Source: Isoetes taiwanensis
Lineage: Eukaryota > Streptophyta > Lycopodiopsida > Isoetales > Isoetaceae
Length of the DNA: 64,000 bases
Direction: 5' to 3'
Assembly (NCBI GenBank): GCA_021234155.1
Contig: JAJEKV010000008.1
Coordinates: 7,032,445 to 7,096,444 of the forward strand
Positions 31,301-51,386 of this stretch are shown here, one piece after another (positions within the stretch are counted from its first letter, which is position 1; the number at the start of each line of letters is the position of its first letter). A program made the translations under genes and the position numbers. Below the pieces are notes generated by a model. It did no database searches and was not told the DNA's origin. It saw only the letters and a list, made by a program, of their open reading frames with translations.

Positions 31301-31316
31301 ACTGGAACAACTTGGT

Positions 31317-31325: not shown

Positions 31326-32148
31326 CGGGGTCTTTTTTGGCTCCCGAAATCGGGGTCTTCGGCGCCCGAAAATTGCTTAAGCGATTTTGGGGATGAAAAT
31401 CGCTTAAGCGATTTTCCCTTGAAAAAGGCCCCACGAAACCACAAGTCATATTTACAATGCGAAGAATGAATTATACTGGTATTCAAAGATCAATTTAGGA
31501 TCAAAGAGATAATCTGAAGGATAAAAAGCTTGGATTCAAGTAGAAATGGGCCGAAACGGCTTTGGAAGAGTCGATTTTGAGGCGAAAGTGCCAGATTAAG
31601 AATGATTGATTGTTCTGTAGTGTGTACTGGATTCGCTGAAAATCTGGAAAAACATGGGAAAACAGGGATGATGTGAGCAAAACCGGACTCGGTATGCAAA
31701 GAAAGAGCCGATTTGTATTGCTAAAGGGCCGATTAAGGACTGAGGAGGATCGATTTGCCTAGGAATCATAGAATCAGAGACTTTTACACCGATTTTGGAG
31801 CTATCAGAACTGGGCTCGGATTCAAAGGAAAATAGGCCGAAATTGCTTAAGAAGAGCCGAAATTGGATTGGGCATGGTCGATTTGGCTTGGAAACGCTCC
31901 AATTTGGAAAATCGATGCTAGAAACATGTTGTGCCGTTGCTATTCTAGAGCCACCCTTTCTGTGTCGTTGCTGTTCTTTGTGGTTTAATTGTCGCCTGAT
32001 GATCGCATTTTCCGGCGACGGAAAAGCGAAAATCGCTTAAGCGATTTTCACTTTCCCCTTTGAAAATCGCTTAAGCGATTTTCCCAAATTCGCTTAAGCG
32101 ATTTTGGTCCGCGCGAGACCCCGATTTCGGGAGCCAAAAAAGGCACCG
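31326..32148. mobile_element. Non-autonomous Mutator-like element (823 bases) with internal palindromes
   Basis: The ends are inverted repeats of about 33 bases with two mismatches (left CGGGGTCTTTTTTGGCTCCC; right is the complement of CGGTGCCTTTTTTGGCTCCC), flanked by an exact 9-base target duplication. Near each end lie copies of a 20-base palindrome with core AATCGCTTAAGCGATT: about 31369-31388 and 31395-31416 on the left, 32028-32049, 32062-32083 and 32087-32105 on the right. No transposase is encoded. The middle holds only short frames (for example 31795-32040) and a set of GGGCCGA words. The element interrupts copy 1 of repeat R and is probably mobilised in trans. Confidence 0.9.
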
Positions 32149-32620
32149 TTATTCTACTCCCTAAGTCTTGCGCATCAATTGCACAAGAGTAAGTGTGATA
32201 TTAATTTTTCAAAAATTGAGTGACAAGATCATCGTCATTTGCAATGTCAATACCCACAATTTGAGGTGTCAACAGAGGCTAGAGGCTGAATTTCTTCCAA
32301 GAGCTGAAATTATTCCAACACTTGTTGCTTTGGCAGATACTTCTTTGTTGCCTAATTTGCCTTTTCATGAATTTTTCGGCAAGTATGCTTATCATGCTTG
32401 ATTAAATCACAAACTTTGCAATATAAATGAACATTACATGGTTACTATCCCTATTTTGGCTGCACCATCTGTATGGAGGCCACTTGTTGTATAGTAGGAG
32501 TTTGTGAGATTATTGGAGTTTGCGTTGGTTTAATGAGGCCACTTGTTGTATAGTAGGAGTTTGTGAGATTATTGGAGTTTGCGTTGGTTTAATTAGGACT
32601 AACGATGGTTTTGTATGACA
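32149..32620 (+). repeat. Dispersed repeat family R, copy 1, right part, with a 62-base tandem duplication
   Basis: Resumes repeat R after the 823-base element. The segment 32157-32386 matches 50828-51032 (CATCAATTG, GTGACAAGATCATC, AATTTCTTCCAAGAGCTGAA, TTGCTTTGGCAGATACTTCTTT). A 62-base unit (GAGGCCACTTGTTGTATAG) is repeated at about 32475 and 32537. A short frame (32168-32401) is open in this copy and broken in the other, so I do not call a gene. Confidence 0.8.
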
Positions 32621-33083
32621 ACAAATACATGATAAGCTCTCTCAAAGAACTTATTCTCTTTTTTATTTTTGATCATTATGGTCTTTTAATTGACATCTTG
32701 AACAAAATTTTGGCAATATACATGCAGGTTCAGAATGTCCAATGGACCCACTATACTCATAACAAACTAACAATTCCTTGATTTTTCAGCTATTGAAAAC
32801 TTCAAAACTTTAGCATTTTCTATGCCTATTTAATTTTTGGAGTAACAACAGGAAAATGAAATTACATCATATTGTAAATCAGTAAATAGAATCCAACCTG
32901 GATCTGCTCCCAAATCTAAAAATAAATTGTATCTTCTTGAAATTGTAAGTCAAAATGCTTTGCCACATAACCTCTTCTTGTCACGATTGTTCTTGTTGGT
33001 ACTTGCTTCTTTATTTTTTAGGCATATATTTATGATCCCTGTTTTAAATGTAATCCAGAAACAATATTAGAGCAACTCCACAT
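32621..33083. other. Short unassigned stretch between repeat R copies
   Basis: AT-rich, no supported frame. One word (GTCAAAATGCTTTGCCACATAA) recurs at about 54807, so this part also belongs to a dispersed repeat. Confidence 0.5.
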
Positions 33084-33415
33084 ACATGCCCGGCTTATAC
33101 AAGCTTTGTTTGTCCGAACTGTTGAAGTAACTTGGATCGAGCTCAGACGCCATAGAGTTCTAGCAAAGTAATAGCCAAGTCGAAGTGCCTATATATGAGA
33201 GTCATATCTTCTTGATTTGTCTTCTTCTATTATTTCTATGTTAGGAGCAGCAAGGTTTAGTGGGAATGGCCGTGGTTTGAAGTTTCCATCCTTGCTAATG
33301 TGCACAATGCCCAAACTCAGGCTACGCCCTAATGGAGATCCACCCTTAGATTCATGGGCAAGTTGAATACCAAAAATAGGTTTTGGCAAGTCAAATACAA
33401 AATTAGAATAGAAAA
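33084..33415 (+). repeat. Dispersed repeat family R, copy 2, left part (interrupted)
   Basis: Matches 30672-30900 and then the CAAGTCAAATACAAAA..AGAATAG run found at 31107 and 31222. The match stops at 33415, exactly where the terminal inverted repeat begins. It resumes at 50741. Confidence 0.85.
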
Positions 33416-33438
33416 GTCGTATTTAATTAAAGTGGGAC
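33416..33438 (+). repeat. Terminal inverted repeat of the 17.3 kb element, left
   Basis: A 23-base sequence starting GTCGTATTTAATTAAAG. It is the exact reverse complement of 50718-50740. The next bases inward differ between the two ends apart from GGGACTCA-like words. Confidence 0.85.
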
Positions 33439-34035
33439 AAATCTTGAATTTTGGGACTCGGACTGAAAATGGGACTCACACACCAAAAAGGAAATTTCTG
33501 AATTGATTGCTTGAATAGAATTACACATGACACACAAAGAATTGGGTTACTTGTTTTCCTCATAAATTTTACAAACCACTAGTTGAGAAAGTTTTCAGAC
33601 TTCTCAATATTATCTACCCTCATACAATGATAAAGCATGGAGGTTGCTCATGGCCTTGTCCATCTCCCTTCTTGGGATCTTGTGTGTGTTGTCCTTCGCA
33701 ATGTGAGAACTTGGATATGACCACACCACACACTCCACCAATTCCCTCCTTTGAGGGTCAGCATAATTTGCCCTCCACTTTCTTCTCCCCCCGGTCGTAT
33801 TGCTCCTTCAAGTTGCCCTTCTTGTGTCTCCCAATGGGCTCCCAATATTGAATTTGGAATCCCTGGACGCAACTCCTCTCCATCGAGGCATAGTGGTGGT
33901 TACATCGAGAGAGTGCCACCCCTAACCATATTGGGCCGAGTCCTCATCATCGCCTTACTAGCACAAAGTATCCTTCCTTGATGTCCTCAAAGGGATCCCA
34001 CTCTCAGAAGATCAAACCACTTTGGCTTTGAGGCC
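33439..34035. other. Left sub-terminal region of the 17.3 kb element
   Basis: No gene recognised. The minus strand may include the 3' part or 3' untranslated region of the DUF7869 gene. Several GGGACTC words follow the left terminal repeat. Confidence 0.4.
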
Positions 34036-34632
34036 TTACTTCCCACAAACCACTTGGAACCCTTGTTGGGACCCGGTGTGAGCATTCTTAGACGTGCTTG
34101 CACCTTGAGAACCCTCCCATCTTGACTCGGCAAGAACCCGCCTCTTAGCTCCCTCCCACATGGTCGTTCGGTTTCTAAGCATGTCACAACTTTCTCCCAA
34201 GACTTGATTAGGGGAGTCCATTTGATTTTTCTTAAGAGTGGAGGTGTGCTTTCCATTTCTAACATCATCCCAGTGCGTTATGTAATCCTTGATGCCCTTC
34301 ACTAGTTGGCTAGAGTCTTTGACTGTCTTGAAGGGAGGTAGTGGTTTTGGCTGCCCTTTAGGAATGAGAACTTCACCAGCAGCACCCCTTTGCCACAACT
34401 CGATACCTTGTACAGGCATCCACAACTTGTCACCTGGTCTCCACTTATATTGCATGATTGGTATTCCATCCCTAACCCAAAACTTGAACTGAAGTGGCTT
34501 TGTGTGTCCTGTCAACTGGTCCTTACCATCTAGCAAGTATCCCTCTACAAATGATTTCCAATCTGCAACCTCATCCATCAAGAAAGCCATTGGGTTGGGG
34601 TCAATGCACACAAGGCCCCCAAAAATTAACAT
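34036..34632 (-). pseudogene. C-terminal part of DUF7869-family protein
   Basis: The frame runs VADWKSFVEGYL, TKPLQFKFW, then a KWRPGDKLW stretch. In DUF7869 proteins a DWKSW-like motif, a KPHHFRF-like strand and a short W-rich end follow the histidine/aspartate motif of the core domain. Here the core lies upstream on the same strand at 39704-40276, about 5 kb away. I read this as the last exon of the same gene. The end after about residue 100 (polar, Ser/Gln-rich) is not conserved in my memory of the family. The start of the segment is not fixed; a splice acceptor could lie in GATGAG just before VADWK. Confidence 0.55.
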
Positions 34633-34639
34633 GCATTCA

Positions 34640-37600
34640 TAATCATGATGGAAACCGGTATAAGAGTGGTTTTTACTACATGTAATTCAAAATGTCAGGA
34701 ATAACTACATCGCTTTCATAACCACTACTAGTACGATCCTAATTCTTATACTAATTTTATATCTAACACTAGTTTCTTCAAAGCATTACTAGTTTAGAAG
34801 ATGGTTCTTAACTGTACATTGTGAATATTGCAATTTAAGATGATTTTACATATTAGTTATCATTATCATATATAATCTTTTTAACTAGTTTTAATCCTTC
34901 CAAGTTTTTGAAAAACCATGTTTGATTTTACAAGTGTGCCATAGTTTTTGGCACATGCTTATTTAGAAGGCTTGCAAGTAGTCTATTATGTTGGTTTATG
35001 TGGTGGTTTTTTTAATATACTTGTTTCAATCTTTAATGTCACTGATTTTGAGCATAGTTTTTTACGTTAACTAGTAATTTCGGCTGTTATGTCTAATTTT
35101 GCCCTGCTTTGAGAGCATGATCCTGAATTGTAATTATATTATGTACATTGATTTTATTTATTGGTTCCATGGTGTCTATACTTTGTTTCTTGTTTCCTAC
35201 CATTATATGTAGCGTAGCAGCCTTAAGCAGCTCTATATCAGTGTCAAGCAGCCTTCTGGAGAAACTATATCAAATCCTTTCGCTATCAACATGTACCATT
35301 CTAGCGAATGTTGATTATATGTATCCATTACGATAAGAGGCATGTAATGTCCTAATGTGAAACTCTAAATGATGTTGAGCATAAGACTTTGATATTCTCG
35401 AGCAATGTTAAAAGCTTAAATGTTTCATTCAATTTAGATGATACATTCTGATTAACATGTTGATTAACATCTCGAGGCAATAAGCCATAATGATCTTAAC
35501 TTTTTAGTTAAAAGATCTTAGAAAACAAGATACGATTCTCTACAGGAGCATAACTCAACTCCATCTTTTTATTATTTGTATGTCTTTGAATTAATTTAGC
35601 AAATGCACTCTCAAAATAGTAACAACAGGTAGCATCACATGGACCTATCACTTCTATGTCGTCCAAGACATGGTCTTCTCCGAATGTGCTCAAGGGGTGC
35701 AGTGTTATGGCCATATGGCCAGAGAGCTCCATCCACTGAAGACGCCAAGCTTGTTATAACTTTCTAGTGGTATTCATGGTCTGCTCGGACCATCCATTTG
35801 CCCTTGCAAAATTGTAGAATATTCTGGTAAGGTCAGTAACAATTTGAGAAATGCTAAAAGTGAAGTAAACACTAAACTACTAAATAATTTGCATACCACT
35901 GGTGAGTTCAAGAAGTTCATCCAAAGATGATGTTTGCAATCGCAAGTTTCAGAGACCCCGATATTTTAAACCTCAACTAAATAGTTATCTTATTAAACAT
36001 TATATGTTGCTCCATGCTAGCTAACTATAGTCGTGTATTAAAGGTAAATTCATCCTTGTTATTGGAAAATATTCAAGTAACATTTAAGATGTCGAGTTCT
36101 AAAAGTTCGTCCAAGGACTCAAATATGGCAAGTGAATTTACAATCTATGTTAGCAAACACAAGTTTCAACCCAATTAGATATCTATACAAAAAATGCAAA
36201 TGAAAAATCTAAGTAGTTAAATACACATGCACTTTAAGAAAAATACATCCATGCAATCTTAGGAAATCTAACATAATCTAGCATAATCTTTGAGTTGAAT
36301 TCATTCAATTTAGATATTTGGCTAATAATTCCATGGGGTGAAGGGTTCAAGGCATTCTATTGTTCTAATGTTCTCCTAATATGCATCAAGTCATGTTCTA
36401 GAGTGGCCAGTTTTTTCCTTAGAAAAACATAAACCTTCAATATCGATTTCTAGCATTCCATAGTTTGCCTTAGAAACACTATGTTCAGCCACTTTAGCAA
36501 GCTTAAAATGGGATTTTGATGCACGAGTCAAAAGCATCCAATTTACTTTAGGGACCAACTATTATGACCAACAAAGCCAAGCTCGATACCACAGGCAACT
36601 AGTCGACCTTTCGCTCAATGCGCTCCTAACCTAGTGCTATAGTACGAAGATAGCATGTAACTTGGCAATTTGGGTGTTTGATCAATCGTATACTCCTAAA
36701 ACATATGTCCTAGGGTAACTCTAACATTTTGGATGCAACCGCACAATCGAACTGTCATTCCATGCCTTCTGACATGCCCGATCGCACGATGTCCAGGTTG
36801 TTCAAGCCGTTGCAATGAGGCAAGTTTGGAACCGATGCTTGAAATTTTGTTTCCTTCTCCCTCTTGAAGTCTCTATTTGAACAGAGCCCTATAGGCAACT
36901 AGTCGACCTTTTGCTATACAAGCACCCCGCATGTATGTTTGACAACTTATGCTCTATCAGTCTCGATTTCCTATTATCCTAGAGGTAGCATAGTACTTGA
37001 ACATGTAGATGCTGGAAGTGGGGCATGCTACATAATTGCTTTCCGAAGAGGGAGTATCAGAAGGCAACTAGAACAACTCTAGAACTCAAATCTAACTTTG
37101 TCAATAGGTCTGAAACATCGGGGTTATTATATGGATTTGTCATCCAGTTCATGCTACACTTGCAGATCATAGTGGAGGATTCAACCATTTGAATAAACAA
37201 ATGATGCCAATAGAGGTTCTTGGCAAAATGTAGGCGTTATATTGAATAAGTAAACAACAGGTGACCTCTATAAGCAGTTCGGCTCCTTATCGAGTTTAGA
37301 TGTTTGCATGCAGCGCCTTATTTATCAACCACAATCATGTTTGAACCAAAAACAAAATACTTGGTATTTTCTCGGATTTAGCGAATTTTTTGTGTCGTGA
37401 CACGTTAAAGCAATATTGAAGGAAAAAATACATGGGGTTTTTGTGATTTCGGGGTAGTTCAAACCAGGCATCGAAAAATTAGGAGTTAAGTCTCCTAAAT
37501 TTTCGATCACAATTCTTATTTTTTGGTTCGAATTTTTATTTTCCGACAAGAAAATTGTGGGGTTTCCTTCAAAATCCAGTGGAGCATGACACTTACCGGC

Positions 37601-39690
37601 AAATTATCTGGTTAGAGCTATGGGGGATTTCGAAGCCTGACCAAACATCACCGTGGTTCTTAAATAAAGGCATCGTATTTGCGTGATCAAAAAATATAGT
37701 AGAGGTACTTAAAAAGAATTTATATAGGATGAGAAAAAAGTATGTGTGGCCGATCACTCCTCCCGTGATCGGCCAATTAGCCCTAACCCTAACTTGCATC
37801 CAGCGGCACCAGAAATGTTCCTCTTCCTGATTTTTCTTCAGCACAGAAGCGAGACTGCAAGTCCTCCGCCTTCTGTTCTTGCTTCCCAGTTTCCTTTTCA
37901 AGCCATGGCCGCCCAGAAACCGGATCTACGAGCATGTCGTAGAGCGCCTTACTTTCCAACATTGTCCATTGTATTGTGCTGCTGGATTTCTTCTATGAGT
38001 AAAAGGTGGTTTTCTTGGCGATGGAGGTGATTTCAACATTTTACTTGCAGTCTTGGTGGCATGCAGTGATTATAATGTATTTAATTTGAGTTTCGAATTT
38101 GCATTCCACAGCTTCAAGTTTTGGCTTTGCTGTTTTCATGCAAGTCTGTATCTGATGCTATTCTGCGTTAATTTGTCTCTGCGTTATTCTGCGTTATTTT
38201 TTCTGGAGCACATTGTTCATCAGGTTGCATTTTGCTGCCTTCGATCTTTGTCTTCGGATCTGATAAAATGGATAATTGCTTCTGGGTTGCAGGTTCTCGA
38301 TATGACAAAATGATTTAGTCAAAGACCATTTCCGCATCTCGTTTTAGAAAATGGTGTGCACTAGACAAATGCGCGGTTCTTGGACACGAAACTGGACGAA
38401 AGAAGACTCAAATGACATGATTTAAACAGATATTCACAAAACTGTAGAGTTCTTGTCGATGGCAACGCTCTTCGTGGTGTAGTGGCACTGGGATGCTCTA
38501 GTCCATAATCCAAAACCATTGGTGTTGATCCAAAAGGCGGGGCAGCAATAGCTGCTTCTCTGAAGTCACATTAGTTGTAAGGGAGCAGGTAATGGACGCA
38601 ATGCTTTTCGATTTTGAATCTTATCCTATTTCTTTATATCATTTTGTGCATCTATTCTAACTATGCATCTTGTAGAGAGTATTCAGACTAGAGGAAGGCA
38701 AAGGACGACTCATGTTTTCCAGGAGCAAATTAAGAATTACACTTGAAGTAACACATGCATAGAGAATGTTTTGTGTTCTTATTCTTTGTGTATCCTCTGC
38801 TCGTCTTTTATGCTTGCATTTGGTGGATCCAGTGGAACAAATCTGGGAGGCAAATGGTGAATGCCTTCGTCTTGCTTGATCAAAGTGGATATGACATGCC
38901 TGTGATAGTTTTAGGATGGATTATGTACTTCAGGCATCTATTACTGCTTGGGTAGAAACTAATATTGATCAAATTTAAATGAACAGATGAATTAGGTGGC
39001 AGAGACTGGCAAGGTTTTAGAATGATTTCAATGAAATGTATTCCATTATCGGAATTGGATTGGTCTTGCATAGTGTAGAAAAATTGAAGTCTTGTTGGGT
39101 GTCATTTAAGGGATTTGGATTTCCCAAGGTTCGACTCCTTGGTCCCATAGAAATCTGTAAATAAATTAAATGCCCCAAATCATACATATTCATATATTTA
39201 CCACCATTCTATATCGTGTGTCAAAATGCCTATAAAACACTACATTGTATACTATACAAACCATATCTAAATACAAACCATATTTATGGACGCTATATTA
39301 TACAATAACATGTAGTATTATCACCATGTAAAGCAAAGAATAAATAACATGCTACATTACTTCTATTGTAAAGCAAATAAGATATATGGGGTAAAATATC
39401 TTGCCACAAAACTTGTCGTACTAAGCAATATTATATGTCATGTACTTTAAGTAGGAATAAGGATCAATTACACTTACCATGTCGGAATGCTATGTTCATT
39501 TATCATACTATCAAATTGTATAAATGAACCATGTTGCGTAACTATATACTTAACCATGCAAAAAAATCATGTATGTTTATCACACTATTAGATCATGTAA
39601 ATGAACTACGTTGTATAACCATATATGGTTTGTAAACTTTTTGGCCCACAAACCAGTACCGGTTTAAATGCTTGGCTTTCATTAACAAAC
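34640..39690. other. Five-kb gap within the DUF7869 gene: long intron or nested insertion
   Basis: AT-rich with few frames. It separates the core of the DUF7869 gene from its C-terminal part. AAACCGGTA occurs at 34652-34660, and its inverse at about 39655-39664, close to both borders, which hints at a nested element, though the matching stretch is short. Around 37747-37775 lies an 11-base-arm hairpin (TGGCCGATCAC), followed by CCCTAACCCTAAC and possible 5' leader sequence of an unknown plus-strand transcript (first ATGs at about 37815 and 37904). No protein was recognised there. Confidence 0.4.
37747..37775. repeat. Perfect hairpin beside a CCCTAA run
   Basis: Arms TGGCCGATCAC (37747-37757) and its complement (37765-37775) with a 7-base loop, followed by AATTAGCCCTAACCCTAAC. 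It could be a promoter-proximal structure or a footprint of another element. Confidence 0.6.
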
Positions 39691-39703
39691 CATGGTTAAG
39701 AAG

Positions 39704-41146
39704 TCATATTGATTCGATTTTGGGCGCCTTGTGGCAGCTCTCAAACACATCCATTAGTTCAGGGAGAGTGGTCACGTTTTCTCTCTTGAGCTTGGTGGAG
39801 AAAGTTCCAAAGAATCCATCTATATCATCATGCGTATGCCCAACCATCATGAATCCCACTTTGACAACTTTGAATACTCCCACTGCTGTCAAGTATGACA
39901 TTGCCCCAAACATCCATCTATTCTTGTTTTCTTTCCAACAGTTGTCCAACTGAACACATAGCTCCTCAGGCAGTGATTTCTCAAGTAAGGGGAAATCATC
40001 CCAAGTCCTCCTTGATTCACTAGACACCTTGGATGTGAGGTTTTTTATCTGCCTTTGGTAACAAAGCGGTTGATCATCCATCAAAGCCTCAAAAATGGGT
40101 GCTGAAGGGGAATACCTCCTCCCTTCTATCGATCCTTTCTCTAGTGTTCTCAGGCACTTGAAAATAGAGCTCACATGGAAGTTTGGATCATCTCTCCATA
40201 GATCAAGCACAAAATGACCATATGTTCCAGTTCCATGACCATGTGTTAATACACCCCCGGACTTACTTACTTTCATCCGAAAAAGCGTTTTGACAACGCT
40301 TGGGTAAAGGATCTAGCTTTGGCAAGAAAGTCTTGTGTTGGTCCATCTTATCATGAATTATACACAAAAATTTGTCCGGTTTGCATCTCGAGAAAATGTT
40401 CTCCACTTTGCCAATACAACTGTCTACATGATATTTGGTCCCTTTGGTGATCTGCAAATTGCTCCCTAATTGCCATTCTTTCTTTCTCTATTGCGCTTGA
40501 TGCAAGTGTATCCTTGAGTTGAATGCAAGTGTTGCACTTTGAGAATGGCATGTGTTGTAGGACACTCACGCCCGAGAAGTGAGTGCTCCATAACTTGCTG
40601 AAATGTGATTGAGAAAGAGGCCTACCTCCAAGGTTTCCGGGATGGAGTTGACCTCCTTAAGGCACTCCTTTTGGATATAGTGTTGTGGCAACACTCTTTG
40701 CACCACTCGCACAGCCGTGCTTTCGTTCACCTTCGACTTGTGGGGCATAGATTGAGACATGTATCTCACAAAGCTCTCAAGACCGCAATGGCCTTGAGAG
40801 TATTTGCTCTAGGTTTCAAAGTGAGTGCATTACCATGTTGGAACAAACTGCGTGCCCTTTTCTAACCTGCTCCCAATGTCGTAAAATGAAGACTTGCTCA
40901 CCCCAAGAATCCATCTCAATGCTCTCATACATACCTTCATGCCCCTCAATTGATATAGTAGCCTTCACGTTTTTCATCATAGCTGGAATTCCTACACAAG
41001 GAGTAAATGAAATTAATCCTATCTTTTTGAAGTCTGTCCAATGTATTGGGACCTTATCTCAAGACGAGGTCATCCACATTGTAATCGCCTTTGTGCAATC
41101 TAGGTTGCAACACTCTTGACCCCTAATTGCCTCTAGGTTTTCTTTG
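39704..41146 (-). pseudogene. DUF7869-family protein, N-terminal and core domain, frameshifted
   Basis: In translation order: MAPTKENLEAIRGQECC with CCNLDC (41146 down), then SKVNESTAVRVV, HFSKLWSTHF, PFSKCNTCIQLKDTL (two Cys as in the family's CDTCVEL motif), CIIHDKMDQHKTFLP, GHGTGTYGHFVLDLW, LCVQLDNCWKENKNRW and VGHTHDDIDGFFGTFS. This order is what I know from DUF7869. The three acidic motifs (IHDKMDQ, QLDN, HTHDDID) are spaced like the Asp/Asp/Asp-Glu triad of RNase H-fold transposases. The pieces lie in different frames with several stops (near 41030, 40810, 40565, 40380, 40263), so this copy is broken. Function in the family is unknown; the transposase idea is inference. Confidence 0.65.
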
Positions 41147-41188
41147 GTTGGTGCCATACTTTCCACCCTTTCTAAATATTTGTCACTT

Positions 41189-41662
41189 CTAGGCCTCTTG
41201 GGCACCCTTGGGCTGCCTTTTTATGAAAAACATAAAGCGTCTCTTCCTTGTGATCAAAGGATGCTCATCGACCACCAAATCTTCCACATGGTCTTGGGTG
41301 GGCCTTGGGGTGTGTAGTTCAGTAGGGCATTCTAGAGTATCACCATTCTTGTGTGTAATATATCTAATTGGCCATCTCAACTGAGCTTGGGACTCCAGCA
41401 GCCCTGAGCACACAATGCAATCACTGGAGCTTCCCTGGGACATGATTGTATCAAGTTCGATAAGAAGCTTCACAATACCAACTCCAAGATGGTCATCTCC
41501 CAGCCTTTCATCATTCACACTATCAAATGGATCAACTGCAGTTATTATGCCCTCTGCAAATACCGTCTGGTTGCAAGGGTGCAACAAAAGGCAACCCATC
41601 TTCCTCCATTGGAGCCTAGGGCAATGGCCTCCTTTGGACTTCCCTGGCTCCATTTTACTCAT
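41189..41662 (-). pseudogene. DUF8039-like segment upstream of the DUF7869 gene
   Basis: From the ATG at 41662: KMGCLLLHPCNQTVFAEGII, TAVDPFDSVNDERLGDDHLG, VGIVKLLIEL. This is close to the DUF8039 pattern (C.LL, VAEG.V, DP.D.VNG..LG...VKV.V), found in plant proteins annotated as Ptta/En-Spm transposon products. The rest of the frame is polar and not recognised. It ends at 41189, only 43 bases before the MAPTKEN start of the DUF7869 body on the same strand, so the two may be exons of one gene. Confidence 0.55.
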
Positions 41663-41689
41663 CTCACATGCTCCCTGAATGAAAAAGCT

Positions 41690-41910
41690 CACATTAAAAC
41701 CATATAGCCCCAAACACCACAAATATGACCATATGAACCATATAAAACCATACAAACATATTAAATATAACCATATTAAATCATACAACCATATTAACTA
41801 AAATCATATAACCATACTTAAGCATACAACCACACTCATTCTAAACCATATGTAAACATTGTATCCATATATAACCATTGTAACTATTCAACCATTGAAA
41901 CCTTATTAAA
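41690..41910. repeat. Degenerate (ACCATAT)n region
   Basis: About 220 bases with many AACCATAT, CATACAACC and ATATAACCAT words. No reading frame of interest. Confidence 0.7.
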
Positions 41911-41929
41911 CCCTTTCATATCTTGTCAT

Positions 41930-42110
41930 GGCCACGTGGCACCTCTTCAGAGGCTGAAACCGTGGCCACGTCGAAGAATCCGCCTTTGCCATCGCCACGG
42001 GGCATGGCCCACACGTGATGAGTTTATTATTGCACTTTTTACGAGGTTCGAGGGTGCGGCCAATTAATTAATCCCACCCTCTTCCTCTCCCCCCGACCAT
42101 TCTTCCTCCC
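41930..42110 (+). promoter_or_regulatory. G-box cluster and CT-rich leader
   Basis: GGCCACGTGGCAC at about 41933 and GGCCACGTCG at about 41962 are G-box-type motifs. CACACGTGATG follows at 42011, then a C/T-rich stretch (42070-42130) typical of plant 5' leaders. A short spliced frame may begin at 42400 (MIQFYPDKSLL) and would end soon after the next acceptor near 42684, so the downstream gene is unclear. Confidence 0.4.
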
Positions 42111-42880
42111 CTGTTTTCTCTGATCACTCTTCGAGCTCCCTGTTTTCCTTAAGCGCCCGCCTTTCCGATCAGGCGATCGATCGAACCGAGCGATTCGAAG
42201 GCCATCTTATGACAGCAGCTTGGTCGACGGATCAGGACGCTTCCAGCCAAATGAAGTTCTCGCCTTGATTCTTTGTTCGGCCGGGCGTTCTGCTTGCGAG
42301 AAGAAAAGTGAGGCCCTTTTAGTCTTTGCTTTTTAGTTTTACGTAAGTCCTTTAGTGCATTTTTACTTATATTACGTTGTTGGAGGCTCTTATTAATCCA
42401 TGATACAATTCTACCCCGACAAATCCTTACTCACGCTTTGCCAACGACTATACCCACATGGAAGCGAACTTCGGAAGCCTCCTCCTCATCCAAAGAAATC
42501 TTCCGGTATGTTTTGTAATATCATACCCTTTTTAATCTCATTTTTTCTCAGATTGTTCTCCCTTTGTTCTCATCTTTGTTCTCCACGTTCTCTGTTTTCT
42601 CATTAATCTCATTAATCTTTGTATTGTTTTACGTTTATTGTTATCTTTTTCTTGCTTGTGGTTGAATTGAATACATTGTGCAGGGCACAAGTGAGAATAG
42701 TGGTTAGAGTAGTAGCAAGCAACCGAGATAGAAATCATCGAGACCGGTGTTAGGAAGTAAGATATTGCGAGCATTAACAGAACATAACTAGGAATGTCTT
42801 TCTCCCAAAGAAGAACTAAGAATAGGAATTGCTTCACGAGAATCTCCATTTCTAACTCACGGCAAAATCCACTGCGGAGA
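42111..42880 (+). other. Possible 5' end of an unknown transcript
   Basis: Small frames (ATG at 42210, ATG at 42400) with plausible GT..AG junctions (donor at about 42504, acceptor at about 42684) give only short products. I do not recognise a protein. A long minus-strand frame (43002-42538) has no supporting motif. Confidence 0.3.
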
Positions 42881-43156
42881 CATGCGGAAGGGAGGCGAAG
42901 TTGAGAATACTTCAGCTTGCCAACAATCCGGAAGTACAGGGCCTTTTCTCGACTCGCGAAGTCGAACTTCTCGACTTCGAGGCGAGAAGAGGGAGTGTAC
43001 ACTCGACCGCTTGGCAGGTTGAGGGATTCTCGACTTCATGATTCGGATTGCACAAAGAACCCAATGTCTTCACATTCTTTAGAACCTGCTGCGGCCTTCT
43101 CGACTCGTGAGTCGAGAATGTGATACCCCGCCAATGGCCCTTTGTGCGATCGCGGT

Positions 43157-43236
43157 GCCTCCACCCGATCGAGCCACTCTCCTTGAACCATGCTCATCGA
43201 ATATTGCAAAGAGGACCGGCTCGACCGGGTGGAGGC
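43157..43236. repeat. Hairpin repeat H, copy 1
   Basis: Left arm GCCTCCACCCGATCGAGCC, right arm GGCTCGACCGGGTGGAGGC, with a central stretch that includes TCGAATATTGC. About 80 bases. Arms match each other with few mismatches. Other copies lie at 43434, 43914 and 44069. Confidence 0.8.
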
Positions 43237-43433
43237 CTCTACGACTAACCAGGAGGTGGCGCTTTCTCGACTGTGAGTCGAGAAAACGCCAGAGCTATAG
43301 TGCACTCTAGAGCTGGCTGCAGGGCAGTCTAAACCACTCTCCTTCTATCTTCCTGGACATTGCGAAGGGAAGTGGTTTTCCTTTGTCGCGAGCCAACTCT
43401 AGCAACCCAATTCTCCTGTGTGTGGTCGCAATG

Positions 43434-43516
43434 GCCTCTACCCAATCAAAGACCGTCTCCTTCGAACCATCTTCGTCGAATATTGCGAAGGGGATGGGCT
43501 CTGATTGGGTGGAGGC
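43434..43516. repeat. Hairpin repeat H, copy 2
   Basis: Arms GCCTCTACCCAATCAAAG and GGGCTCTGATTGGGTGGAGG. The inner parts CTCCTTCG and CGAAGGGGA also pair. The loop has AACCATCTTCGTCGAATATTG, shared with copies 3 and 4. The AATC variant is present in both arms. Confidence 0.8.
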
Positions 43517-43913
43517 CTCGGCGACTAACCACAGAGGTGCTGGCCGCTTTCTCGACTCGTGAGTCGAGAAAACGGCCAGCTCTAGTGCACTCTAGAGCTG
43601 GCCTGCAGACAGTCTTAACAACTCTCCTTCTATCTTCCTCGGACATTGCGAAGGGAAGTTGTTTTTGTTTGTCTGCGCAGGCCAACTCTTAACAACCCGA
43701 GGAAACCTCAGAGCTTGCTGTATGCATTCTCGGATCGCGAGTCGGGAATGCCTTACCCAACCGGCACTCCATGTGTACCATCCGGAGTTCTCGATGGCTA
43801 AGGCATTCTCGACTTGCGAGTCGAGAATATAGACACGAAGCCAACCGTTGCATTCTCGACTCGCTAGTCGAGAATCCTCTAGCCAGCCAATTCTCCTGTG
43901 TGTGGTAGCAGTG

Positions 43914-43996
43914 GCCTCGACCCAGTCAGAGTCACTCTCCTTCGAACCATCTTCGTCGAGTATTGCGAAGGGGAGGGGCTCGGACTGGGTGGAGGC
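43914..43996. repeat. Hairpin repeat H, copy 3
   Basis: Arms GCCTCGACCCAGTCAGAG and CTCGGACTGGGTGGAGGC; inner CTCTCCTTCG pairs with CGAAGGGGAG. The AGTC variant is in both arms. It is preceded, as copy 2 is, by CAATTCTCCTGTGTGTGGT and followed by CTCTACAACTAACCACAG. Confidence 0.8.
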
Positions 43997-44068
43997 CTCT
44001 ACAACTAACCACAGGGAAACCACAGAGAGGAAGCCAAGGCTTGCATTCTCCTGTTTTTAGTCCCAAGT

Positions 44069-44151
44069 GCCTCTAGCCTGTCTGAGCCACTCTCCTTCGA
44101 ACCATCTTCCTCGAATATTGCGAAGAGGAGTGGTTCGGACTGGGTGGAGGC
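44069..44151. repeat. Hairpin repeat H, copy 4
   Basis: Arms GCCTCTAGCCTGTCTGAG and TTCGGACTGGGTGGAGGC; inner ACTCTCCTTCG pairs with CGAAGAGGAGT. It is preceded by a shorter form of the shared flank (GCATTCTCCTGTTTTTAGTC). Confidence 0.75.
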
Positions 44152-44169
44152 CCCTCCGACTAACTACAA

Positions 44170-45060
44170 GAGGATGCATAAGAACCGCATCTCCTGGGCC
44201 TTAGACCTAGCCTGATCTATGTGATACATTCCAAGTAAACAGTCCATGAAAAAACACACCTAAAACGGAACTGTTCTTTACCCCCGATCCATTGTTTCCT
44301 TGCCGAGCATCTCTCAACCCAGAGAGTAAATCATCTCGAAGCTGAAAAAATCTTTGGACAAGGAAACGATGAATCCGTCGAGCTTATCGGCGGTTCCATT
44401 ATTTAAACACGACGGCATGTTCTACAAGCGAAATAACATAGGCATCTCTCAAACTCACCTCTTCACGCGCCAGTAATTCCACGGGCCCTTTGTATCACGG
44501 GATCCCGCAGCCTCACCTAGAGTCTTTGCTTCTTCTGTCGGTCTCTTCAAGACTGTATTCGCATGTAATACTTGTATCACTGCGATTCTCGCGTATCCCC
44601 GTTCCATGGCGCCGATGTAGAGTTCCGTGTCGGCGGCTCCTCTCCGCTTCCTACCTTAGCTCCGTGCTCATCGATCAAATCAACTGCTTTTTAATAGGGC
44701 GCGCGCGGTCAGGAAAAACACATATGCAAGGCGCTGTTAGCAGCTTACCACGTCGCGGCGCCATTCCGGAAGTCGCCAACAGTCGATGCTCCCCTCCGAA
44801 CTCGAGGTCCCCAATGCCGCAGGGAAGATAAACTACGCTCCGCTCACTTAGTCCCTTGATGTGATTAAATTTCGAAATAGTGTTTGGGCGGGCTAAAGCC
44901 GACCGTGCTGTACCCTTAGCCCGCTTTTTTTTCATAAATGATTGCATGTCCTTAACTTCAAATTAAAGAACACGCCGGATCTTTTTTACATGCAGTCCTA
45001 AAACTCACAACGCGCGGAGGAAACTTAATTTACAGAGGGGCCCGAAGAGGATGAGAGGGC
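44170..45060. other. Spacer between hairpin array and cargo coding region
   Basis: No recognised gene. The plus frame at 44490-44831 has no family motifs. An inverted pair GGGCGGGCTAA / TTAGCCCGC at about 44886 and 44917, followed by a T-run, resembles a hairpin with a T tail. Confidence 0.4.
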
Positions 45061-45069
45061 ATACAGACA

Positions 45070-45481
45070 TGGCGACTCCGACTCCGTCCAAGAAGCGAGG
45101 CGCCGGAGGGGATGCTTCTACCAGCGGCATGAAGAAGAAGAAGACAAACGCCCCAGGTGAGCTCTGAGGTTTTTCTTTTGTCGGAATACCTTAACTGATC
45201 CATCCTTTCTTCTTGCAGCATTCACCTCGGACTCACTGGTGATCACTGGCCGAACTCCATTCTTCGTCATCGAGGGACTGGAGACAGAGCTTCTTGAAAC
45301 AGCAGCAGATTCTTGGTGGTATGTCGAGGTATCGACAAGTGGGAAGGAGAAAGATCTGTTTCTACACCAAAGGGACAAGAAGAGCTCCGGAGACAAGTAC
45401 AAGAAAATCGGTGTTGTGCTCTCCGTCTCTGCGCCAGATTCGAAGCATTTAACACTACATGTCGAGGGATCCGCCGGAAGA
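45070..45481 (+). CDS. Two-exon start of an unknown nuclear-type protein
   Basis: ATG at 45070 opens MATPTPSKKRGAGG and a GMKKKKTNAP basic tail that looks like a nuclear localisation signal. A donor at about 45157 (G|GTGAGC) and an acceptor at 45218 (TTGCAG) keep frame into exon 2 (45219-45481), which encodes FTSDSLVITGRTPFFVIEGL, SWWYVEVSTS and VVLSVSAPDSKHLTLHVEGS. Exon 2 ends at a good donor (AGA|GTAAGT). About 116 residues in all. I do not know the family. The following sequence (45500-46110) has acidic coding-like segments with frame breaks, so the gene seems to decay further on. It lies inside the 17.3 kb element as possible cargo. Confidence 0.5.
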
Positions 45482-45549
45482 GTAAGTTCTATCGCACCAA
45501 AAATTAGCGGTTTCAAATTATTCTCACTCTTCCATGAGCAAGGCTAAGG

Positions 45550-46330
45550 GCACCGAAAAAGGCCGCGCCTTTAAATTGTCAAAACCTTGGGTGGAAGGAT
45601 CCGGAAGGGATGAAGGAGGCCTAACCCTAACATCCGGGAGCTTGGTATGGAGATTTCCGTGAGTCGGGGAAAAGCTGCTTCAATACGGGGAGCTTCACTT
45701 CTCTCTTGTCTTTGAAGGCTCTACAACACTCTACGATGGGGGGAATGAAGTTGTGGTTCATACACAAAAAGTCCACCAAAAACAAAAATGGGGAAGATGA
45801 CACCACACGGGAGGAATCGATGACGAAGATGACGAAGATATGGTCGACTCTCCAATAATGGATCCGGATGATCGGATCAGGATTTCCACGAGAGAGGGGC
45901 ACGAAAAATGGGCGGCTAGCTCAAGTATTATCCGTTGGGAATATCACACAAGCTCTTCTTTGGACATTAGACTACCAAGGTTTGCACCACGGGAGATGCC
46001 GTCTTGTTCAACCATTGGGAATTTAATCCAAAGACACATCTTTGGAGATTCAAACCCGATGGTGCGACATCCCGCTGCGCATCCAATGCCCGCCAGATGT
46101 CATACCTTTTAGCGATCGGCCGGTGAGTTGTTCACCGGAAGTCCGAGGAAGATCTGAAGGAAAAAGACGTCCGGTTACGGGTTGTAGACGGTCGGCATTC
46201 GATGAGGGCGCCCAAGTATTGCGAGACGGAGAGGGAGGTGCCCCAAAGGATCAAGGATAGATATGCCAAGCGAGAGTGCAGAGTTCTTTCTACGGAGACG
46301 CCAAAGAACCGAACCGCCAAAGATTAGCCA
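45550..46330 (+). pseudogene. Broken coding-like sequence
   Basis: Segments in different frames look like protein: KLLQYGELHFSLVFEGSTTL near 45670, then DDEDDEDMVDSPIMDPDDRI near 45820, then RIQCPPDVIPF near 46080. They need at least three frame changes. No family was recognised. They continue in the direction of the gene at 45070. Confidence 0.35.
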
Positions 46331-46379
46331 ATGCCGAACACAATAGCAGCCGAAAAGCCGCCACGTAAGGTAAATAACT

Positions 46380-46810
46380 CTCCGAATCTTTTCCATTCTC
46401 ATCGCGAGTCGAAAAGCCTACCATCCTAGCATTTGCCGAGTATCATCGGGTTTCGACTCCGCGAAGTCGAAAGCCCATTTGCCGATTATCATCGGGTTTC
46501 TCGACTCGCGAGAAAGCCGTGGTAACACGTAAAAAATGAAAGGATGCAGAGCTTTCCTCGACCGAAGTCGAAAAAATCCTTTGAACGCCTAATTTTCTTT
46601 AACTTATCGGGTTTTCTGAAGTCGAAAAGCCCTACCATCCTAATATTTTCCGACATCAGGGGGTTTCTCACCGCAAGCCGAGAAAGCCGTGGCTTCTGAA
46701 AAATGAAAGGATGTAGCTTTCGACTTCGGAAGTCGAAAACCCGGATAAGTCAAAGAAAATTAGACGCTTCATGAAACTTTCGACTTCATGAAGTCGAAAA
46801 AACCCGGGCT
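46380..46810. repeat. Palindromes, cluster 2 (arms TTTCGACTT / AAGTCGAAA)
   Basis: A variant of the palindrome at 42940-43880: the arms read TTTCGACTT and AAGTCGAAA instead of TCTCGACTC and GAGTCGAGA. Clear copies lie at 46717-46739 and 46777-46800. Degraded copies lie at about 46395, 46449, 46497, 46556, 46612 and 46664. The words GGGTTT and AAAGCC flank many copies. Confidence 0.75.
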
Positions 46811-46849
46811 ACTATTTACCGTTTATTCCGGGTTTTGTAGATGCTTTCA

Positions 46850-47660
46850 TGCTCGACATTGGTGCATTGACCAATGCAGCCCTTATCCCTGACCAGATCA
46901 TACACGCCAGGGCAACAAAGGGAAAGCATTGGGTTGTCCTCGGCGTCCTAAAGGAAACAGGGCTCCCTCGGATAAGTGGAAGACCTTTGAGAAACTATGC
47001 GATATGTTCTGGCTGGAGGGACGAAGATGATGAGGGAGAGGAAGAAGAGGAGAAGAAGAAGAGAACACCAAGGAAAGGCGGGGGAGTCTCTCTCGGACCA
47101 ATATGACCTCATTCTTAGCAATCGAGGCGGTCTCAGGAGAAATGGACCGAGATATGGGCTCAATGGACACGAGGCAAGCTCAAGGACAAAGAATGGAGAA
47201 TTTCCAACCGTGCCGGACCCCAAGTTGTTTGACAAGCAGTTCATGAAGAGGATCTGAGGCCTCACGGACAAAGAAACGCTTGACCTACAAGGCGTAATCT
47301 TGGATGGAACAATCCTGCTAAGGAAGACTAGGAGTTCTAAAATGCGGGGCGCGAAAGGATTATGCCACAATCACGAGCGGCAGTCGCGTTAGAAGAAGGC
47401 ATCACGGAGTTACGCAACGTTGCATCTAATGAATACCATGATTTTGATTATTACAAGGAAAAGGCTGCTCTTGATGAGGAAGACATGAAGGAATTGAACC
47501 GCCTATGTCAACCCTACATCAACACCAAGCTGAAACGCATAACGTCAAAACCCTTCCTTTCCCCTGAACGTGCTATGGCAATTACGAAAAGGAAGCTTGG
47601 ATTCGGGTGGTCCCATTTAAAGGCGACGATATAGCTCCCCATTTCTGGTAACTTTGGGGC
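46850..47660 (+). pseudogene. Broken coding sequence, unknown family
   Basis: Coding-like parts in shifting frames: MLDIGALTNAALIPDQIIHA (46849), an E/K-rich run near 47040, FPTVPDPKLFDKQFMKRI (47200), LTDKETLDLQGVILDGTILL (47259), then a frame 47362-47634 with ITELRNVASNEYHDFDYYKE and LDEEDMKELNRLCQPYINT. The order and spacing suggest one gene with about four frameshifts. I do not recognise it. Confidence 0.4.
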
Positions 47661-48478
47661 ACAAGGGATTTGGTGGTCCGAACCGCACTGGACCCGTGGC
47701 ACTATTTGCCATCAATATGATCGAAGACCCCACCCTTTTTATGACAAAGCTGACATAGAGCGTGGTACAAGGCGTGTGCGGACATGACCGACACGGATAC
47801 TTTCGGTTTCCTTGTCTTTTGCATGCCGGGCAATCGGACAACCGCTTTGTCTCCCAATGGGCAGTGATATTAACTTCACCAACAAGATCATGCACTCCAT
47901 ATCTGAACTTGATCATGAGTGCAGGACTTGGCTTGCCGAAGGCACCAAGCTTTGCCAACATAGTTCGGTTTTGATTTCAAGATCGGCGATCGACCGGATA
48001 AGTGGTGGTCTAGCGAGCATCATTATCTCGACAAGTTCATGATCTCTCAAGAGCGGATGGAACCCCGGAAGGGGGCAGGTTTATGGAGGATGTTCCATCG
48101 ATGGACAAGGTCAACCAAAGATGGTGCGACCGGTCCTATACATAGAATTCCTATCCGGCCAAGAGTTATCAAGTACTTCATAACCAGCTTGGTCGAGGAA
48201 GATCAAATTGTATGCGAGTGGTACATGAATGGCCTGTTCTCTCAGGGGGCTATGCTGTTTGGAATGAAACCTATATCCGTGGTTGGAAATAAGGACATGG
48301 TTGAAACCATTCAGTCATACCTGGATCTGCTTCATGAGCATTTCAAGGGGAGGAAGACAAATGGAAGCGATAAAAGACGGCGAGGACGAGGGAGACAAAG
48401 GCGACGGAGACGAGGATGTCGAAGGTTTGGACCCGAATGCTGCCGAACACATTCTTGAAAACCTGAGATTGAGGTGAG
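47660..48478 (+). pseudogene. Broken coding sequence with a possible methyltransferase-like segment
   Basis: The frame 48039-48370 reads RVIKYFITSLVEEDQIVCEW, then MNGLFSQGAMLFGMKPISVV, then DMVETIQSYLDLL. The layout (acidic residue after a hydrophobic strand, small-residue loop, helix, second strand, helix) recalls the SAM-binding region of N4/N6 DNA methyltransferases, but the glycine-rich loop is not canonical. This is a weak structural guess. A frameshift near 48350 leads to an acidic repeat EDEGDKGDGDEDVEGLDPN, ending near 48477. Earlier segments (47660-48030) are also frameshifted. Confidence 0.3.
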
Positions 48479-48498
48479 TTTACTTTGCTCTATCGGTG

Positions 48499-48576
48499 TT
48501 TCTCGACTCGCGAGTCGAGAAAACTCGTTTCCTTTCAATAGCTTTTCTTTTCATTCTCGACTCGCGAAATCGAAAA
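48499..48576. repeat. Two palindromes, cluster 3
   Basis: A perfect 24-base palindrome at 48499-48522 (core CTCGACTCGCGAGTCGAG) and a damaged one at 48553-48576. They sit between two coding-like regions, in what could be an intron. Confidence 0.85.
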
Positions 48577-48789
48577 ACTCATTTCCTTTACGGCAGATGT
48601 CATCATTTCGAGGAATTCCAGTCAAACGACTCCGGATCATTGTCATTGAGCAGCGGTTCACGTCGCGAGGAGGAGAAATGAAAAGGACAAAGACAATCGA
48701 GCAAGACAACGCTCCACGGCCGAAAAAGGACACGAAAAGATATTGATCCCGCATTTGGATCCCGATGAACCGGATATATGGTCGAGCCA

Positions 48790-49451
48790 AACTCAAGCGG
48801 GATCCACTGGTCCCCGCCAAGCTTGTAATATTTGACGTCAATGGAGTATTAGCTGCAGTATACCACGATAAAGATGTCCCCGAGATTAACACCTCGCAGA
48901 TCCCACCAAAGCGGGCATAAAATAGTGTATCCGGGCCTAGAGCTAAGGAAATTGTTGAATGGTGCACAGGCGGGGATTCAAGTGGGCATATGGTCTTGTA
49001 TGGCAAAGAAAAATATTGTCAATGTTCTTGGTGTTCTCGGCATTTCAATTTTGAAGTTCAAGTTCGTTTGGGGAAACGAAAGGGTCGAGCATGTGTCGGA
49101 CCTCGATCCAAAATCACAAAGGGGAAGCATATAATGGTGAAAAGATCGGCCGGGGTTTATGAGCAATTCGGGACTATGGCAAACACAACACTGATCATAG
49201 ACGACTCCGCCTACAAGTGCTATCATAACGCAGCGCAAAAAATACAATCATTGCTAAGCCATATCGACCTGAAGAATATGAGGCGGATAGGTGGTTGTCC
49301 TTGGTTGTGTCTGTCTTGGCGCGAATCCCGCTTTGCCATTCTTGTCGCCGATGTGCTTCGAAACTATCCGAGCCTCACGGAACCCGATCCAGAGAGCAAG
49401 GCGATCATGAAAGCTATGGACGACAAATATTTTGGTGAACAAGAAGAGTGA
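48790..49451 (+). pseudogene. FCP1/NIF-like (HAD-type) phosphatase, frameshifted
   Basis: Three overlapping frames together give the order of the FCP1 homology domain. Motif I is LVIFDVNGVLA (the plant NIF-like DLNGVL form of DxDGT); next come IVYPGLELRKLL, VGIWSCMAKKNIVNVLG, FKFVWGNERVEH and motif III TLIIDDSAYKCYHNA. The C-terminus (YPSLTEPDPESKAIMKAMDD, stop at 49449-49451) is not conserved in the family as I know it. Frame changes lie near 48915, 49100 and 49240-49340. The HAD nucleophile Asp and the late DD pair are kept, but the gene as given cannot make the full protein. It could be a pseudogene or contain assembly errors. Host-derived cargo of the 17.3 kb element is the likely reading. 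Confidence 0.6.
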
Positions 49452-49499
49452 CCTCTGCTTTCAGATAGTCAAATTGTGTGAATATTGTAAACAAACGTG

Positions 49500-49870
49500 A
49501 ACACATGTATTGAACATTTTGTAATGAATATACTTGTATATTGAGTTTTCGCTGCCTTTCTCAACTCACGAGTCGAGAAAGGCATGCTTGTCCTGTTGAT
49601 GAGACCATTTGTATGTTTGATTGTGTGACTGGATGCAGCCACACCCTTATATGATAATGCTTGTACATTGCGTTTCCTGGGCCTTTCTCGACTCGCGAGT
49701 CGAGAAAGGCACTGGTTGTCTCGTTGACGAAACCATTTGTATGCTTCCGTGTGTGATTGGATGCAACCATATTCTAATGAGAATGGTTGTACTTTCACTT
49801 TTATGGGCCTTTCTCGACTCGCGAGTCGAGAAAGACACTACTTCCCACGTCATCGGATGCAGTTGTATGG
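49500..49870. repeat. Tandem repeat, about 122-128 base unit, each with a palindrome
   Basis: Three palindromes at 49554-49583, 49681-49710 (perfect, 30 bases) and 49807-49836 are spaced by 127 and 126 bases. Between them the spacer repeats (ACCATTTGTATG, GTGTGATTGGATGCA, ATGCTTGTACATTG-like words). So palindrome and spacer were copied together. All ends carry GCCTTTCTCGACTC or its complement. Confidence 0.85.
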
Positions 49871-50717
49871 AATGACTGTTCTCCATTGTAATTTGATTTC
49901 AACATTCTTTTCTTCGTTTTGACTAATGGCACCGTAATTGTTAATCATACTCTCCTTGCTCCGTGGTTCGAGCACGAATCCGACCGCGAGCACGCATCCC
50001 GCTTCGGGCATCACGAGACCGCCGAGGGCGCACGAGATCCCCGCTCAAGGCGAAAGAAATACCGTTACAGCACGGACCCGGCCACGCTACACTCTTGCCC
50101 GGCCTCAGGGATAAGGTTGCTCGCGAATTCGAGGTTGCTCGCTACACCACAGGGATAAAGAACGGTGAAGAACAAAGAGAAAGTCCAGGAAGCTCAAAGC
50201 ATCTTGCAAGCATTGCATAACATCCACGGAGGTTGGGGAAGGAGCATATTCGATGAAAAGCTGCGGGAGGCGAGTGGAGAAGTCGGGTGGACAGGTCGGC
50301 CGGTAGCTCCAGAGGCACCTCCACGTGAGGCATTCCACACTCTTCAGGTTGCCCCCAAGGCTTACAGTCGGCGTGAAGAAGCTAGTTAATCCCCAAGGTG
50401 GACCACCTACCAAGATGATGTAATCAGAGTGACAACAAAGACCGCCATGGTCTCTGCGTCCGATGTAAAATACATTGTACCTATTCAATTTATTAATAAA
50501 AATTCTTTTTCAACTAGTTCTTTGGTTTCAATCTTTAATGAATTTCCTTTGTTTCAGTTGCATTGTTCTTGTTCTCGACTCGCTAACCAGGGAAAACTGC
50601 AGCAAAGCTGGAATGCAGAGTTTTATTCAAAAATTCGAATTAAGGATAGTTTTCGGGTCGAGGTGCTCCTTTTTATGTAAATTAACAGGGTTCCGAAAAA
50701 AAATGGGAATGGAATGA
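49871..50717. other. Right sub-terminal region of the 17.3 kb element
   Basis: No recognised gene. The frames at 49919-50158 and 50165-50389 are GC-rich and without known motifs. A half palindrome (TTCTCGACTCGCTAACC) remains at about 50574. AT-rich sequence leads into the right terminal repeat. Confidence 0.4.
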
Positions 50718-50740
50718 GTCCCACTTTAATTAAATACGAC
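50718..50740 (-). repeat. Terminal inverted repeat of the 17.3 kb element, right
   Basis: A 23-base sequence ending TTTAATTAAATACGAC, exact reverse complement of 33416-33438. The host repeat resumes at 50741 (ATAGAACCTTAAAATTGGGA). Confidence 0.85.
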
Positions 50741-51190
50741 ATAGAACCTTAAAATTGGGACCCAATAAAAGTATTAGAAGTATCAAACTGGAATTGATGG
50801 GTTTATTTTCGCAACAATTGGGGCGAATAGTGCATCAATTGCTCAAGAGTAATTGTGATATTAATGCTCAAAACTTGAGTGACAAGATCATCTTCATTCA
50901 AAATTTCAATACCCATGATTTGAAATGTCAACATAGACTGAATTTCTTCCAAGAGCTGAAACTATTCCAACACTTATTGCTTTGGCAGATACTTCTTTAT
51001 TGCTCAATTTGCCTTTCCATGAATTTTTTGTCAAGACAAAATTTGCAATATAAATACTATCCATGTTTTGGCTGCATCATCTGTATGGAGACCAATTGTT
51101 GTATAGTAGGAGTTTGCGATATTATTGGAGTTTGCAATTTAAGAGTTGCCTCTGTGTTGCTTTAATTGGGACTGATGATGGTTATTGTTA
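50741..51190 (+). repeat. Dispersed repeat family R, copy 2, right part
   Basis: Continues the family after the element: 50741-50800 matches 31250-31310, and 50828-51032 matches 32163-32386. A later part (TTGTTGTATAGTAGGAGTTTG) matches 32483. The degraded frame at 50755-51165 differs from its counterpart by indels, so it is not under clear coding constraint. Confidence 0.8.
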
Positions 51191-51386
51191 AGAATCTATG
51201 CGAAAACAAGGAAAATATGCGAAGAATATGCAAGAAATACGGAAGAAATATGCCAAGGTCGACAAAAAATTGGATATATGATGAATACCCATATGGTCAT
51301 CATAGTTGTTGTATAACAAGAAGTATGGGATAAGCTCTCTCAAAGAACCTATTCTCTCTATATTTTTTATTATTACAAGAAATTTA

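Follow-up and report, generated by a model that had tools for sequence, protein, structure and literature searches.

A probable terminal-inverted-repeat transposon of Isoetes taiwanensis with a DUF7869 gene, an FCP1-like phosphatase gene and a nested CACTA-like element

Sola elements are DNA transposons that encode a DDD transposase, duplicate 4 bp of target and are bounded by inverted repeats of variable length, from 11 bp; they measure 2-9 kb, some exceeding 15 kb, and have been found in the moss Physcomitrella, while being seemingly uncommon in flowering plants (PMC10741241). Mutator elements (MULEs) are defined by 7-12 bp duplications and long inverted repeats (PMC10741241), and the signs of EnSpm elements are CAC..GTG ends and 3-bp duplications (PMC12730594). 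Here, we describe an insertion of about 17.3 kb in the genome of the quillwort Isoetes taiwanensis, located at 33414-50742 of a 64,000-nucleotide stretch of contig JAJEKV010000008.1 (the window). Our best explanation, to which we assign a probability of about 0.88, is that the insertion is a copy of a terminal-inverted-repeat (TIR) transposon that encodes a DUF7869 transposase, carries an FCP1-like phosphatase as a passenger and has been split by a nested CACTA-like element.

The insertion, its empty site and its borders

The first-pass annotation of this DNA had pointed to exact 23-base inverted repeats (33416-33438 and 50718-50740), to flanks formed by consecutive parts of one repeat, R, and to a visible empty site, and all three are borne out. 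Matches to the 23-mer in the shuffled window average 0.00 (100 shuffles). Comparison of the window with itself places one copy of R (copy A) within 30665-32678 and a second (copy B), in two parts, at 33079-33413 and about 50741-51375: 33079-33377 matches 30665-30984 (78.5%), 33374-33413 matches both 31105-31144 and 31216-31255 (90%) and 50832-51135 matches 32172-32523 (78%). Owing to a 98-bp stretch that is present twice in copy A (31084-31181 and 31195-31292), this copy contains two uninterrupted versions of the junction, so that, as far as a copy of the repeat can show, the empty site is real. Copy A also contains an 823-bp insertion of its own (31326-32148) with a 9-bp duplication, TTATTCTAC, imperfect inverted repeats at 31323-31391 and 32083-32151 (84%) and palindromes GAAAATCGCTTAAGCGATTTTC, which by these signs appears to be Mutator-like.

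The borders were located by comparing the window with 16 further copies fetched with both ends (13 whole and three as two overlapping stretches), which had been chosen as facing pairs of exact termini; part of one more copy, C35, was also fetched. Since 15 of the 17 copies have AA immediately before the left 23-mer and TT immediately after the right one, the terminal inverted repeat of the family is longer than the 23-mer, namely 25 bp, AAGTCGTATTTAATTAAAGTGGGAC. The target duplication is exactly 4 bp in 13/17 copies (12/16 without the window), 5 bp in one and an ambiguous A run of up to 6 in another, and is absent from two (L011 and L019). The motif ATAGAA does occur at both junctions (33408-33413 and 50741-50746), as had been noted, and it looks like a 6-bp duplication because the right end of the window element reads AT in place of the usual TT, beside R bases. 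A 6-bp duplication was nevertheless rejected, as the other copies have AA/TT within their ends and 4 bp outside them; the best borders place AGAA on either side of the element (Table 1).

The length of 17.3 kb, originally taken as that of the element, does not hold for the family. Three other full-length copies measure 11.7-12.1 kb (12,059 bp in C16, 12,058 bp in C22 and 11,703 bp in C15, from 23-mer to 23-mer), and the transposase gene of the window contains 5,125 extra bases that are missing from four other copies (L021, L022, L024 and L027), in which the gene is uninterrupted at that place. This nested stretch is bounded by CACAAGGCCCCC and GGGCGCCTTGTG, with the 3 bp GCA duplicated on either side of it, and is like CACTA/EnSpm elements in its CAC..GTG termini and the size of its duplication. 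An intron at 34.6-39.7 kb was considered and rejected, the borders being without visible splice sites and the empty site being exact in four copies. Once the nested part is subtracted, the window element measures 12,197 bp and is 86-90% identical to C16, C22 and C15. Judged from these sequences, the 17.3 kb is a composite of a 12.2-kb element of a kind found elsewhere and the 5,125-bp nested element. As the latter splits the transposase gene, the window copy probably cannot produce a transposase of its own.

The family and its relatives in the genome

Genome searches covered an assembly of 1,658,258,908 bases in 1,110 contigs, in which the window lies on contig C1089; the genome paper gives 1658.30 Mb in 204 scaffolds and 909 unplaced contigs, and describes a draft built from Nanopore reads and polished with Nanopore and Illumina data (PMC8566536), so that frame breaks in repeats may partly be errors. 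With up to three mismatches, the 23-base terminus is found 1,920 times in the forward and 1,958 times in the reverse orientation, the same 23-mer read backwards giving 0 matches genome-wide; the rarity initially ascribed to such an element therefore does not apply within this genome. Orientation was scored for neighbours within 30 kb among 100 matches listed, all exact and in contig order: 31 pairs face each other, two point outward and one runs in the same direction. The 31 facing pairs listed comprise 12 of 3.4-5.8 kb, 14 of 10.9-14.8 kb, four of more than 20 kb and one of 0.7 kb.

Twelve short copies (L009-L020, 0.7-5.8 kb) match the window mainly at the termini, sharing 41-107 bases at the left end and 167-238 at the right; some have a palindrome in common with it as well, and DUF7869 is detected at E 1e-5 in none of the 12. 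Copy L021, at 5,105 bp, is shortened by deletion and retains parts of both genes. Collinearity of the right half of the element extends across the window, C16, C15 and C35 (9.7 kb seen); about 0.85 kb of this half is missing from C22. Near-perfect palindromes of 22-30 bp with the core TTCTCGACTCGCGAGTCGAGAA lie in fast-changing parts of the family; all nine matches in the window (up to three mismatches) fall within the element, in the range 43097-49832. They are present in 11 of 13 short copies (not in L020 or L021) and in C22, C15 and C35 but not C16, the copies that bear them including L009-L019, L025, L026 and L028; the 14 loci L029-L042, which hold other DUF7869 genes and two of which overlap, have none. 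Scans of the window for tRNAs and for Rfam families (gathering threshold) gave no match.

The DUF7869 family extends well beyond this element. A genome search with PF25273 yielded 9,903 first-look candidates, 150 of which were scored and were all over the cut-off, with open frames of up to 987 amino acids, and the same search of 14 control genomes found none. The ends of elements in other DUF7869 families were located by comparing copies; an automatic TIR search in these loci returned chance-like pairs only. In a distinct second family, the C1063 element (8,636 bp) has the duplication GCAA and an inverted repeat of about 30 bp, the C1033 element (8,277 bp) has the duplication ACTA and an inverted repeat of about 14 bp, and both run from AACAA.. 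to ..TTGTT; the far end was found in two of four elements, those of C1103 and C960 not being found in the fetched stretches. DUF7869 genes, AA..TT ends and 4-bp duplications co-occur in two families, the second represented by two elements. One border each, ending TTGTT, was recognized in families F2 (L037, L038, L039 and L041; the end in L037 is unclear) and F4 (L040, the same place as L029, and L030). Long open DUF7869 frames of a further family occur in L037 (2649-5609, minus, 987 amino acids) and L038 (2299-4869, plus, 857 amino acids), a possible sign of recent activity.

Two genes within the element

That the insertion has coding content of its own, as first proposed, is supported by two genes. 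The gene nearest the left end, on the minus strand, codes for a DUF7869 protein (PF25273, E 5e-37), the 3' part of the gene being contiguous with the 5' part in L021, L022, L024 and L027. Predicted models of DUF7869 relatives adopt an RNase H/DDE fold and three aspartate (D) columns are invariant in 31/31 sequences, and the models suggest that D-D-D is the catalytic triad. The window diverges from other copies by 2-8% over the transposase, and the ratio of non-synonymous to synonymous divergence (dN/dS) for the C-terminal half is below 1 in 10/10 pairs, one value being 0.998. A Pfam scan of 31 members (30 homologues and the window open reading frame, ORF) matched none of the known transposase catalytic families; Transposase_23 (TNP1/En/Spm) was matched weakly in four of the 31, with a best E of 6.6e-4, N-terminal in P0001. 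A sequence search of the PDB gave nothing useful. A virus or Polinton-like element was rejected, since scanning viral contigs against the alignment of homologues produced 175 pattern matches but no relative, and Pfam scans of longer or read-through ORFs gave no polymerase. Among the papers searched, none mentions DUF7869 or DUF8039, and the accessible parts of four articles (PMC10541799, PMC4455052, PMC10294476 and PMC6431247) name no such element.

The second gene lies on the plus strand. An open frame of 222 amino acids in L021 matches NIF (PF03031, E 1.2e-10, above the cut-off); the corresponding stretch of the window is frame-broken, and its read-through gives E 0.18, below the cut-off. 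Upstream, the conserved block at 46800-48473 has no Pfam match. Because GTGAGT follows the conserved exon end, splicing of this 46.8-48.5-kb block to the phosphatase part is suggested by the sequence; the acceptor is seen in the window only, the same letters not being found in L048. Three stretches (45.15-45.6, 46.8-48.4 and 48.75-49.5 kb) diverge by 6-12% between the window and other copies, against mostly 11-40% in the intervals that separate them, and a codon-phase scan gave a weak signal blurred by insertions and deletions.

The phosphatase is present in all six coding copies (the window, C16, C22, C15, C35 and L021), and in 4/4 loci fetched by means of the phosphatase, one of them the L021 place, an exact terminus lies 1.24-1.30 kb from it. 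Genome-wide, 150 of 6,850 candidates were scored, all with 73-100% identity and many with open frames of about 320 amino acids. Phosphatase dN/dS is below 1 in 13/15 pairs, including alignments with frame breaks. Among four open copies, which are the best-scoring matches, a choice that favours conserved ones, it is below 1 in 6/6 pairs, with 2-11 changes per 639 bases, and the 3' non-coding DNA of these copies differs by 4-7%. A large protein database was searched with the window's broken reading (138 candidates) and with the open L021 frame (301 candidates), and neither search returned a close homologue at E <= 0.001.

Table 1. Coordinates of the insertion, its surroundings and its putative genes in the window
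Feature	Position	Strand	Basis
Whole insertion, probable TIR DNA transposon (12.2 kb own and 5.1-kb nested)	33414-50742	.	Empty site in R copy A; 16 other copies
Left terminal inverted repeat, 25 bp (exact 23-mer 33416-33438)	33414-33438	+	
Right terminal inverted repeat, 25 bp (exact 23-mer 50718-50740; final AT, usually TT)	50718-50742	-	
Target duplication AGAA, left copy	33410-33413	.	Copy comparison
Target duplication AGAA, right copy	50743-50746	.	Copy comparison
Empty site, R copy A through junction	31216-31280 (also 31105-31169)	+	
R copy B, left part	33079-33413	+	78-90% identity to 30665-30984, 31105-31144
R copy B, right part	50747-51375	+	Stretches 78-92% identical to stretches of 32172-32678
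Putative DUF7869 transposase gene, 3' part, end about 200 bp from left terminus	33619-34608	-	tblastn, 34 homologues
Nested 5,125-bp CACTA-like element, termini CACAAGGC..GCCTTGTG	34609-39733	.	Empty site in four other copies
Duplication GCA of nested element	34606-34608 and 39734-39736		
Putative DUF7869 transposase gene, 5' part including catalytic core, several frame breaks	39734-41683	-	PF25273 E 5e-37; tblastn, 34 homologues
Palindrome family TTCTCGACTCGCGAGTCGAGAA	43097-43118; further starts 43549, 43727, 43806, 43853, 48500, 49558, 49685, 49811	.	
Conserved block, probable exon of second gene	45150-45600	+	Divergence about 9% versus 11-19% around
Conserved block, second gene; then GTGAGT donor-like site	46800-48473	+	
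Putative intron enclosing palindrome at 48500	48474-48596	+	GTGAGT after similar exon end in L048, L049, L050, L028
FCP1/NIF-like HAD phosphatase domain, frame-broken here, open in other copies	48801-49451	+	tblastn of L021 ORF

Elsewhere in the window, a non-LTR (long terminal repeat) retrotransposon-like stretch at 5787-12089 (minus) has matches to RVT_1 (E 1.7e-28) and zf-RVT that exceed the respective cut-offs and one to DUF4283 that does not, and another at 18822-20477 (plus) has endonuclease-like matches below the cut-offs. Exon-like ORFs at 27083-29658 (plus) are taken by us to resemble a plant polyribonucleotide nucleotidyltransferase; the two of them scanned with Pfam at E 0.001 gave no match.

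Classification, alternative explanations and significance

Dispersed shared termini, a target duplication of constant length (4 bp in 13/17 copies), a gene for a predicted DDE/D transposase and an empty site are all found, and on these sequence characters the element is assigned to the class II TIR DNA transposons of the cut-and-paste type. A Mutator element was rejected, as the duplication is 4 bp and the inverted repeat 25 bp. The main element differs from CACTA/EnSpm in its AA..TT ends, its 4-bp duplication and its catalytic family. Mos1 of the Tc1/mariner group and retroviral integrases have a catalytic fold in common with DUF7869, with 5-17% identity in structural alignments, and Tc1/mariner duplicates TA, unlike the 4 bp of the window family (PMC10741241). 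The closest known kind is Sola, which is matched by the 4-bp duplication (13/17 copies and the second DUF7869 family) and by the DDD triad of DUF7869 relatives (31/31, assigned from models); the phosphatase passenger has no counterpart in the available portion of the Sola description (PMC10741241). The element would thus work like Sola but is not filed as Sola, because transposase kinship is the deciding sign and the likeness rests on other signs. A host-type enzyme travelling with a transposase is also known from fungal DNA transposons with a TET/JBP dioxygenase gene, which differ in the enzyme, the superfamilies and the kingdom (PMC12730594).

Several other histories of the locus were weighed against a TIR transposon copy that was split by a CACTA-like element. 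The whole 17.3 kb may have moved as one unit, the CACTA-like element having entered elsewhere before the composite jumped into R; the window holds nothing that orders the two insertions, and the duplications are clean for both. We nonetheless consider this unlikely, because the nested element is missing from 4/4 other copies examined at that place, pairs of 15-23 kb number zero among the 31 facing pairs listed, and a transposase gene broken before the jump would have required help in trans. More improbable still is that the phosphatase-bearing right half (about 42-50.5 kb) is foreign to the family, being either another nested element or a piece of unrelated host DNA that was captured. The GC content of this half is higher than that of the left half, a class of short copies is without it, and 30 of the 34 homologues of DUF7869 come from contigs 1.9-9.4 kb long, a fact that says little about their flanks; against this stand the collinearity of the right half among copies, the phosphatase in all six coding copies and its distance of 1.24-1.30 kb from an exact terminus in 4/4 fetched loci. 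Capture of the right half long ago is possible.

Chance placement of two separate short elements facing each other around ordinary sequence has a very small probability and is in the main refuted. Single termini do occur among the exact matches listed, but facing neighbours outnumber outward ones by 31 to 2, 4-bp duplications flank 12/16 other copies and a 12-kb interior is common to copies, so that the termini belong together, as the first-pass annotation had assumed.

For a TIR transposon copy with a nested CACTA-like element, the following mechanism may be proposed. The DUF7869 protein would act as a DDD transposase that pairs and binds the 25-bp ends, cuts the element out and joins the ends to target DNA with a 4-bp stagger, and coding copies would supply it in trans to shorter ones. 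The plus-strand gene of the right half, which travels with the family, would yield a product ending in an FCP1/NIF-like phosphatase; most likely, although we hold this view weakly, this product would be a helper favouring expression of the element or its tolerance by the host.

DUF7869, a Pfam family without an assigned function, thereby gains a likely role as a transposase, and an abundant transposon group comes to light in a quillwort for which the genome paper gives LTR elements as the most abundant repeats (PMC8566536). A broader and tentative proposal, which we regard as possible rather than probable, is that DUF7869, occurring from plants to metagenomes, is the catalytic core of a transposon superfamily of its own, with AA..TT ends, 4-bp duplications and thousands of copies in the quillwort, in one family of which a long-carried FCP1-like phosphatase aids the element, for example via the host transcription machinery. 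A host-type phosphatase gene has been amplified and kept open inside a transposon, and the question of why transposons keep passengers of this sort becomes testable.
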